A stretch of 64,000 nucleotides of DNA, taken from the NCBI GenBank assembly GCA_025450315.1, contig JANWHQ010000091.1:1-64000 (forward strand), written 5' to 3'. The position numbers and the translations under genes are program-made. The DNA is from Caulobacteraceae bacterium (GTDB lineage Bacteria; Pseudomonadota; Alphaproteobacteria; Caulobacterales; Caulobacteraceae). Shown here piece after piece: positions 39,428 to 42,368 of the stretch (the first letter of the stretch is position 1; each line of letters opens with the position of its first letter). Under the pieces are notes generated by a model. The model did not search any database. It was given only the letters and a program-made list of their open reading frames with translations, and was not told the DNA's origin.

Positions 39428-39575
39428 ATCTGGCGACGCGGGAGGCGACTTTACTCGCCATGAGTTTGCGGCTGCCTCACAACTCCATGGGTTGAAGGGG
39501 GCCTGAAAACGCGGCATGCTCGCTGGATATCGCGGTTGTTGGCCTGCTTCCTTGGACCTGTAAGGGGGAATCCCA

Positions 39576-39842
39576 ATGGTGCCGTTCATCCTGTCGCAGA
39601 GATCGGCGAATGCGCTGGGTCCGTTGACCGATGAGGAACTGGTCGCGCTGAAGGTTCACTACGACCGTACGGTCGATTTCTTCCGCGCGCGTGACATTCC
39701 CGTTCCCGAGGTGGTCGCATCGGCGACCTGGTCCCAGACCCCGGTCACCAAGTCGACGGGAACGCCGCCGGAAGGCCCGTTCCACGACTCCGACGAGAAC
39801 ACCTACAACCAACCCGACGAGCAGTGGGACCCGGACACCTGA
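39576..39842 (+). CDS. Candidate graspetide (omega-ester RiPP) precursor peptide, 88 aa
   Basis: Small ORF with RBS aaggggga immediately upstream of an ATP-grasp maturase; leader LTDEELVALKVHYDRTVDFFRARDIPVPEV, core-like TPVTKSTGTPPEGPFHDSDENTYNQPDEQWDPDT. Confidence 0.75.
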   Translation: MVPFILSQRSANALGPLTDEELVALKVHYDRTVDFFRARDIPVPEVVASATWSQTPVTKSTGTPPEGPFHDSDENTYNQPDEQWDPDT

Positions 39843-39893
39843 TCGTCCCGGCGCTGCGGACGCCGGCTTCGCGACCGGCGGGAGGGGGCTGAA

Positions 39894-40886
39894 TTGGTCG
39901 CCATCGTCGTCGCGCCATCCGACGATCAGCACGCCTTGACCGTCGCGTGGGAAATCAGGCGATGCGGCGGCGACGCCGTCCTTCTCGACATGCGCGACTT
40001 TCCCCTGTCCTGGGCGCTGACCTTCAGCGCCGGCGGATGCGGGCCTCCGAGCTACAGCCTCGGCTTGGCGGACGGCCGCCTGATCACCGACAGCGAAATC
40101 ACCGGACTTTGGTGGCGCCGCAGCGGCAAGTTCACCCTGCCCGAAGAGGTCGCGTTCGAAGAACATCGGCGGATCTGCCGCAACGACTGCGCGTCGCTCT
40201 TCGAAGGCTGGATCTATTCGCTGGGCCAGCGTGTCATCAATCCGTTCACGGACGAACTCGCGGCGAGGCGCAAGACCTTCCAGCTGGCCAAGGCCTCGGG
40301 CTGCGGTTTCAACATCCTGGACACCATCGTCTCGAACTCGCCGGCGGCCGTGGAGGCCTTCGTCGGCGATCGCCCGGACGCCTTCGTCTACAAGTCGCTG
40401 ACCTCCACCACCAAGCTCGGCGTCGAAACGAGGGTGCTGGACGAGGCCGCGGCGGCCAATCTCGAGCGGCTGCGCTTTTCGCCCTGCATTTTCCAGAACC
40501 GGGTGGTCGGCGGCGTGGATGTGCGCGCCACGGTCGTCGACGGCCAAGTGTTCGCCGCCGAGGTTCGCGCCGGCCACCCGGAGGCTGAGGTCGACTGGCG
40601 CCTGGATCCGGCCGTGGAAGTGCGGCCCCACGACCTGCCGCAGGAGATCGAGCGATCGATCCGCATGCTGCAGGCCGAGCTCGGCCTTCGTTACGGGGCC
40701 TACGACCTGAGGATCGACGACGCTGGAACGTACTGGTTCTTCGAGGTCAATTCCGGCGGCCAGTATCTCTTCGTCGAGATCGGCGCGGGGCTGCAGATCA
40801 GCCGGGAAATCGCCAGGTCTCTGTTGGCGCCGTCGCCGGACCTGCCAGGCGCCCTCGCGACGCTGCGGTCGATGGCGCCGGCCTGA
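39894..40886 (+). CDS. ATP-grasp RiPP maturase, MvdC/MvdD-like graspetide synthetase (TTG start)
   Basis: GLWWRRSGKFTLPEE, VINPFTDELAARRKTFQLAKASGCGFNILDTIVSN, CIFQNRVVGGVDVRATVVDGQVFAAEVRAG, LRYGAYDLRIDDAGTYWFFEVNSGGQYLFVE; RBS ggaggggg. Confidence 0.9.
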   Translation: MVAIVVAPSDDQHALTVAWEIRRCGGDAVLLDMRDFPLSWALTFSAGGCGPPSYSLGLADGRLITDSEITGLWWRRSGKFTLPEEVAFEEHRRICRNDCASLFEGWIYSLGQRVINPFTDELAARRKTFQLAKASGCGFNILDTIVSNSPAAVEAFVGDRPDAFVYKSLTSTTKLGVETRVLDEAAAANLERLRFSPCIFQNRVVGGVDVRATVVDGQVFAAEVRAGHPEAEVDWRLDPAVEVRPHDLPQEIERSIRMLQAELGLRYGAYDLRIDDAGTYWFFEVNSGGQYLFVEIGAGLQISREIARSLLAPSPDLPGALATLRSMAPA

Positions 40887-40898
40887 GGCCGGACCGCG

Positions 40899-41690
40899 TC
40901 AGTGGTTGTCGTCGACGTGGTCGTGGCCGCCGATGCGATCGGGACGCCAGTAGCCCTCGGCGAAGATGTTGGCCTTGGGAAAGCCGCGGGCGACGAGGCT
41001 CTGGCGCTGGGCGCGCACGGTCGAGGTTTCGCCCAGCAGGTAGATGTGCCCGGCGCCCGGCGGCGGCTGGAAGCTGGCGATCGCCTCGATCAGGCGCGGG
41101 CTGGACGGCTGGGCGCGGGCGCCGTTCCGGGACAGCCACTCGATCTGAAGGTCCGCCTCGGTCGCTGCCGTCTGGCGGTCGGCGTCGGACTGGATCTCGA
41201 TGATCGCGCGGGCCTTGGCGTCCCTGGGCAGGGTCTCGATCATGCCGAAGAAGCCGGGGATCGCGGTCTCGTCGCCGACGAACAGCCGCCAGTCGGCGCC
41301 GGGGTTCAGCACGTTGCGGCCGCGCGGTCCGAAGGCCAGCACCTCGTCGCCGGGCAGCGAGCCCAGCGCCCAGCGGGTCGCCGGGGTGGAGTCGCCGTGC
41401 ATGACCACGTCGATGGCGATCAGGCGCCGGGCGGGATCGTAGCTGCGGACGGTGTAATGGCGTCGGCCGAGCGCGCCTTCGGTGTCGGGCAGCATCAGCA
41501 CCACGTCCTGGCCGCCCTTGGGCTCGAAGCCCTCCAGATCGTCGGCCGTGAGGGTGACGCGCCGCATGCGTGGGGTGAGCTCGGAGGTCCGGGTCACCTC
41601 GAGCCGCCATTCCTTCAAGCCGCGGCGGCGCATCAGTTCGCGGATGTCCATCGCGGGCGCCGGGGCGGGGGTCTGGGTCTGGATCGACAT
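40899..41690 (-). CDS. Siderophore-interacting protein / NADPH-dependent ferric-chelate reductase (YqjH/ViuB family)
   Basis: LTPRMRRVTLTADDLEGFEPKGGQDVVLMLPD, RRHYTVRSYDPARRLIAIDVVMHGD, GDETAIPGFFGMIETLP. Confidence 0.93.
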   Translation of the reverse strand: MSIQTQTPAPAPAMDIRELMRRRGLKEWRLEVTRTSELTPRMRRVTLTADDLEGFEPKGGQDVVLMLPDTEGALGRRHYTVRSYDPARRLIAIDVVMHGDSTPATRWALGSLPGDEVLAFGPRGRNVLNPGADWRLFVGDETAIPGFFGMIETLPRDAKARAIIEIQSDADRQTAATEADLQIEWLSRNGARAQPSSPRLIEAIASFQPPPGAGHIYLLGETSTVRAQRQSLVARGFPKANIFAEGYWRPDRIGGHDHVDDNH

Positions 41691-41716
41691 TGGGGGTCCT
41701 TGCTGCACGCGTTCTA

Positions 41717-42271
41717 TCACGCCTGCTCGATCGAGAGAGCCGCCGCATCGAGCGCCTCGGCCAGGCGCTGGGCTCGCGTCTCTTCGAGCGGGCCCTGCTC
41801 GAGCTTCAGCCGGATGGCGGTGCGCAGGTTCTCCAGAGCCCGCACCACGCTGGGCGAGACCCCGCCGGCGCTGCGCTCGCGCACCCTCGCCATGCGCTCG
41901 AACAGGCCGTCGACCGAGGCCCGATGCGCCTTCAGCTGTTCCTCGCCCTCGGCCAGCATCTTGTAGAGCTTGCGACCGCCCTCGCTTTCCTGGGCGGCGA
42001 TCAGGCCGGTCTCTTCCAGCAGGGTCAGGGTGGGGTAGATGACGCCGGGGCTGGGGCTGTAGGCGCCGCCGACCCGGTCTTCGATCTCCTTTATGATCTC
42101 GTAGCCGTGGCGCGGCCGCTCGGCGATCAGGGCCAGCACCACCCAGCGCAGGTCGCCGTGGTCGAACACCCGTCCGCCGCCGCGGCCGCCGGGGCTATGC
42201 CGACCGCGCATGTGCTCGCCGTGTCCGAAATGTCCGAAATGGCCGCCTCGGCCAAATCCGTGTCCTCTCAT
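41717..42271 (-). CDS. PadR family regulator with His/Gly-rich N-terminus (YqjI-like)
   Basis: MRGHGFGRGGHFGHFGHGEHMRGRH extension; LRWVVLALIAERPRHGYEIIKEIEDRVGGAYSPSPGVIYPTLTLLEETGLI. Confidence 0.92.
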   Translation of the reverse strand: MRGHGFGRGGHFGHFGHGEHMRGRHSPGGRGGGRVFDHGDLRWVVLALIAERPRHGYEIIKEIEDRVGGAYSPSPGVIYPTLTLLEETGLIAAQESEGGRKLYKMLAEGEEQLKAHRASVDGLFERMARVRERSAGGVSPSVVRALENLRTAIRLKLEQGPLEETRAQRLAEALDAAALSIEQA

Positions 42272-42295
42272 ATGAAATGCTCCTCAAGCCATATT

Positions 42296-42326
42296 TTCGA
42301 TATGTCGAATGGTCAGATATATCTGA
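42296..42326. promoter_or_regulatory. Palindromic operator candidates for the PadR regulator
   Basis: TTCGA-tatg-TCGAA (42296-42309) and perfect palindrome TCAGATATATCTGA (42313-42326). Confidence 0.55.
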
Positions 42327-42368
42327 AACAGGTCGAATGCAAGTCCCGGCCGCTGATAGAGTGCAGCC

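Follow-up and report, generated by a model that had tools for sequence, protein, structure and literature searches.

Genes and features of the locus

The window, which is the whole 64,000-nt stretch of Caulobacteraceae DNA analysed, contains a two-gene locus in which an 88-aa ORF is followed, after a 51-bp gap, by a gene for an ATP-grasp enzyme. The first ORF starts with an ATG at 39576, is preceded by AAGGGGGA and ends with a stop codon at 39840-39842. The second starts with a TTG at 39894, is preceded by gggaggggg, encodes 330 aa and ends at 40886. Coordinates, sequences and ribosome sites given for both ORFs in an earlier, sequence-only reading all match on re-checking. The features, with the related loci (L numbers) that support them, are as follows.

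39576-39842, + strand: precursor peptide gene, 88 aa (50% identity to the upstream ORF of L121; unique among the window ORFs)
39576-39599, + strand: PF motif MVPFILSQ, predicted leader recognition motif (M[VL]PF[IV]L in L121 and L036, PF in L037)
39657-39719, + strand: second leader element HYDRTVDFFRARDIPVPEVVA, semi-conserved FFxxRxI, probably helical (alignments with L121, L122 and L036)
39717-39722, + strand: small-residue doublet A48-S49, candidate cleavage region (kept in L121 and L122; role suggested by the small-residue rule, PMC8939145)
39726-39839, + strand: core region T51-T88 (codon analysis against L121; four residues invariant in four precursors)
39894-40886, + strand: graspetide synthetase, MdnC/MvdD-type ATP-grasp ligase, TTG start (Pfam, NCBIfam and PDB matches, AlphaFold/Foldseek)

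The ATP-grasp enzyme is related to MdnB and MdnC

By sequence, profile and predicted fold, the 39894-40886 enzyme is a graspetide synthetase, as had been proposed from the letters alone. The HMM search suggested at that time came out on both sides of the cut-offs: the enzyme scores above the cut-off of the Pfam MvdD pre-ATP-grasp model, whereas the NCBIfam models TIGR04187, MvdC and MvdD match along its length at 174, 142 and 121 bits, far below their curated cut-offs of 350, 425 and 475. TIGR04187 is the best-scoring named model (4e-51). Matches in the PDB are MdnB, MdnC, AMdnB, CdnC, PruB and PsnB. An AlphaFold model of the enzyme (mean pLDDT 94.3) is closest in Foldseek to precursor-bound MdnC, with a TM of 0.82, compared with 0.75 for PsnB and about 0.67 for RimK. 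Residues invariant across 64 homologues include K127, K167, Q201, R211, D234, R236, D271, E284 and N286.

The enzyme could instead be a RimK-like ligase, attaching amino acids to some protein or other molecule of small size, with the small ORF unrelated to it. RimK has the ATP-grasp fold in common, and RimK family models do match, weakly (TIGR00768, 7e-7). However, when a 64-member profile is searched against the PDB, MdnB/MdnC score far above RimK (5e-92 vs. 1e-13), so that the enzyme does not cluster with non-peptide ligases. Given these scores, the MvdD pre-ATP-grasp domain and a co-conserved upstream ORF with a core under selection (see below), we reject the RimK-like ligase as extremely improbable.

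The small ORF is co-conserved and its core is under selection

In a scan of GTDB species genomes, the matches listed include synthetases of a Pseudolabrys MAG (L036, 50% identical to that of the window) and a Hyphomonadaceae MAG (L037, 38%). Searching the family of the Pseudolabrys genome yielded L121, from a Xanthobacteraceae-family genome, in which the synthetase is 55% identical and an 84-aa upstream ORF is 50% identical to the window precursor. The synthetases of L122 and L036 share 36% identity. In the tree, those of the window, L121, L036 and L037 group in a single clade (support 100/100), and each of these three relatives has a cognate small ORF directly upstream. Searches by class, order, genus and a second order added no relatives beyond L121-L123; none was found on viral contigs, and plasmids gave no precursor and synthetases at most about 35% identical. 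Among 300 Caulobacteraceae, the best synthetase match is 33% identical and the precursor search returned chance-level matches only (best E 7e-4). The locus thus appears from the genome searches to be rare in the host family and order, and the host genome itself has one detected copy of each gene.

When the L121 upstream ORF is compared with 500 window ORFs of at least 30 aa, it retrieves the 39576 ORF and no other (E 1.3e-22), and a chance ORF is thereby rejected. Window and L121 precursors have in common the start M-[VL]-P-F-I-L and the core VTKSTGTPPEGPFxDSDExTYxxPDE. Judged by this conservation, the 39576 ORF is the cognate precursor of the adjoining synthetase; the earlier proposal to this effect is borne out by the way in which L121 pairs a related synthetase with a related upstream ORF. 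Searches of NCBIfam and Pfam assign no family to the precursor, and NCBIfam assigns none to its relatives.

Clustering of homologues had been suggested as a check on core conservation. Residues 57-69, VTKSTGTPPEGPF, are identical in L121 at 13 of 13 positions, and yet 8 of the 13 codons differ, all synonymously at the third base and none at positions 1 or 2. Identity to L121 is 81% in residues 57-83 but 28% in residues 9-47 of the leader; a Fisher test of residues 53-83 against 9-52 gives p 0.004. An identical peptide despite eight synonymous codons argues for a core kept by selection after long divergence rather than for recent transfer, and at the level of codons shows the precursor core to be under selection. 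The L036 and L122 upstream ORFs are more divergent and still align at P65, G67, D71 and D73, which are invariant in the four precursors; this profile consists of two near-identical and two divergent sequences, with L121 as the only close homologue found whose full precursor can be aligned. The L121 core is the same as that of the window, whereas those of L036 and L037 have diverged.

An N-terminal PF motif as the predicted recognition element

The helix LTDEELVALKVHYDRTVDFFRARDIPVPEV had earlier been singled out as the recognition element. The best conserved part of the leader is instead M[VL]PF[IV]L at its very start: the closest precursors begin M-[VL]-P-F-[IV]-L, L037 carries LPFAIA, and PF is invariant in 42 large ORFs upstream of related synthetases. 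A helix is not without merit, as the weaker FFxxRxI stretch follows, semi-conserved in the window and L121 and more weakly so in L122 and L036, and this stretch may help in recognition. The leader pattern published by Makarova is reportedly Phhx(1,2)h, i.e. a proline followed by hydrophobic residues. Compared with it, PFIL is common to the relatives, while PFILSQ of the window lacks a hydrophobic residue at both position five and position six. In microviridins the PFFARFL motif binds the synthetase (review PMC8939145), and fuscimiditide depends chiefly on the RPFG tetrapeptide, most of its leader being dispensable (PMC13003496). Given the conservation and these precedents, we infer that the PF motif, as their counterpart, is a more likely recognition element than the helix and is the first candidate for that role.

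A predicted hairpin core with nested rings

The core runs in the order T58, K59, S60, T61 and T63, then PPEGPF, then D71, D73 and E74. L121 also retains a second acidic block, D81 E82; the last 36 aa hold eight Asp/Glu, including E66 inside the proposed turn. Ser/Thr/Lys and Asp/Glu occupy conserved positions in the precursor alignments, as expected of a graspetide core. As had been noted before, the 88-aa sequence contains neither the microviridin motif TxKxPSD(x)(D/E)(D/E) nor the TTxxxxEE repeats of plesiocin. T58, K59, S60, T61 and T63 (and T76) are the putative donors, PPEGPF the turn, and D71, D73 and E74 (with D81 and E82) the putative acceptors.

From the sequence and by analogy, the arrangement that fits best would be a nested hairpin with at least two esters around the PPxG turn. 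Two registers would fit: an inner T63-D71 and an outer T61-D73 ring, perhaps with S60-E74, or an inner T61-D71 and an outer T58-E74 ring. Nesting has been established experimentally for fuscimiditide, in which Thr7-Asp18 lies within Thr3-Asp22 (PMC12291112), and the L036 core reads TxxxTx(11)DxxxD, a layout of the same kind. The same gene pair might alternatively form a macrolactam via K59, with rings interlocked as in microviridins. L121 retains K59, and microviridins do use Lys; on the other hand, the L036 and L122 precursors have no Lys at that place, there is no PSD turn, and donors and acceptors flank the PPxG turn. We regard the macrolactam as unlikely, though a serious competitor to the nested hairpin.

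The two genes probably arrived as an insertion

The pair lies downstream of nusB and is followed, on the other strand, by genes for a siderophore-interacting flavoprotein and a PadR regulator, and then by thiL. The sequence-only reading was thus right in seeing no transporter, protease or tailoring gene adjoining the locus; in this neighbourhood there is no exporter or peptidase gene and, next to the pair, no PIMT methyltransferase gene. In four other Caulobacteraceae nusB is directly adjacent to thiL, whereas in the window (39428-42368) about 2.9 kb separate them, occupied by the pair and the flavoprotein and PadR genes. The window pair therefore sits in an insertion, and the two genes were probably gained in this way. 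Their GC contents (0.63 and 0.67) are lower than those of most neighbours (0.68-0.76). Precursor and synthetase are the sole genes in common to the neighbourhoods of the window, L121, L036 and L037, in a BLAST comparison at whose threshold the L036 and L037 precursors were too diverged to link. With nothing else in common, the functional unit is two genes, as the compact layout had suggested.

A rare, inserted locus with low GC and no transport or protease gene nearby could also be a passing acquisition that has decayed or has no active product. Against this, neither frame is broken and both have good ribosome sites, the catalytic positions of the synthetase are kept, and purifying selection has preserved the core between distant hosts. 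Decay is therefore improbable, although less so than the RimK-like ligase.

A probable minimal graspetide locus

We favour, with a probability of about 0.88, a minimal graspetide biosynthetic locus in which a precursor and a PF-docked ATP-grasp synthetase make side-chain rings; the product is very probably a ring-closed small peptide, a graspetide. The ribosome would make the 88-aa precursor, and its MVPFIL motif, perhaps with the following helix, would dock on the synthetase. The enzyme would phosphorylate side chains of Asp/Glu in the C-terminal core and link each to a Thr/Ser hydroxyl or to the amine of Lys, at -18 Da per ring, most likely giving rings nested around the PPEGPF turn. Release of the core, about 38 aa long, would then depend on a protease and an exporter whose genes lie elsewhere. 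Its activity may be protease inhibition, if the analogy to microviridin and plesiocin holds.

Many related synthetases adjoin peptidase genes with repeat tails

Of 82 related loci, 57 have an ORF that carries a PF motif and terminates close to where the synthetase gene begins. Among the 42 large PF ORFs, Pfam detects astacin (16), trypsin-like (11), M43 (7), subtilase (3) and tyrosinase (1) domains. Their order is an enzyme domain, Lys/Thr/Asp-rich repeats (KFRDD, TxKExxKDP), PF[IV]LATPHH or a variant, and a C-terminal helix. The part that follows the PF motif has a median length of about 65 residues, and in 17 of the 42 ORFs there is a 4-bp overlap between the stop and the synthetase start. 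Examples among L038-L116 are:

L056, 3550-4986: large ORF, trypsin-like, with a KFRDD tail
L059, 3668-4984: large ORF
L116, 2430-3998: large ORF
L042, 3425-4897: large ORF

As the repeats precede PF[IV]LATPHH, the core would lie before the leader motif, and the large ORFs look like enzymes to which a natural substrate of core-before-leader order is fused. That order has been presented as an engineering step (PMC13003496), and neighbouring proteases are mentioned for graspetide group 32 (PMC13097080). Among the graspetide papers searched, we found no mention of astacin and no description of a natural enzyme-fused core-before-leader substrate.

Other precursors vary at the N-terminus. The Hyphomonadaceae precursor (L037:4522-4932), unlike that of the window, is extended at the N-terminus, where a twin-arginine-like stretch, SRRDILKRGAILGALPFAIA, overlaps the PF motif and suggests Tat-type export of a graspetide precursor; the L084 upstream ORF has a similar RR stretch. 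In the candidate precursors of L040 (342-1088), L054 and L117, the PF motif is preceded by a small N-terminal domain of unknown family, without a Pfam match for that of L040. In another Caulobacteraceae graspetide-type locus (L003:1171-1383) the candidate precursor, GGAGEGSSSAYSGG...DDYCATDQYNTDP, is unrelated and 70 aa long, and a gene for a putative HlyD-type membrane fusion protein lies beside it.

Relation to known graspetides and significance

The closest characterised parallels are MdnB/MdnC and MdnA (PDB 5ig8, 5ig9). The synthetase resembles MdnB/MdnC over its whole length and in fold, at about 27% identity and with one enzyme in place of a pair. The precursor resembles MdnA in its N-terminal PF element and its C-terminal Thr-then-Asp/Glu core, but has PFIL instead of PFFARFL and lacks the TxKxPSDxDE core. 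Fuscimiditide and the graspimiditides (group 13; ThfA/ThfB) likewise have a short PF motif for recognition, well separated from the core (PMC13003496), and a stem-loop of donors, loop and acceptors (PMC12291112) like that predicted here; they differ in the adjacent PIMT, in a loop of 10-12 aa compared with a predicted 7-9, and in core sequence. Plesiocin (PsnA2/PsnB, PDB 7drm-7drp) has the same hairpin order and an enzyme of the same superfamily, but repeated cores where the window has one. Rosaritide MirB is assigned to the TIGR04187 GRASP_SAV_5884 subfamily (PMC13097080), whose model fits the window synthetase best and yet below cut-off; the precursors differ.

The suggestion of a new class was too strong. 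Surveys already hold 43 groups (PMC13097080) or 174 precursor families (PMC8939145) with very diverse cores, and both stress that unmatched cores are common, which makes the window locus a small extra family of a known class. This family is new and rare, with four or five members found, and its core lies outside all motifs compared. More tentatively, it may be a distinct, rare alphaproteobacterial family whose hairpin core, TxSTxTPPxGxxxDxDE, would with its PPxG turn and a loop of 7-9 residues make an uncharacterised ring topology; we consider this possible but somewhat short of an even chance. The locus adds to the graspetides a clean system of two genes, small enough for a single co-expression, whose core has stayed constant across two distant hosts. 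The comparison has also brought up a wider pattern in which graspetide-type synthetases are coupled to peptidases with a tail of repeats that are the likely sites of modification.
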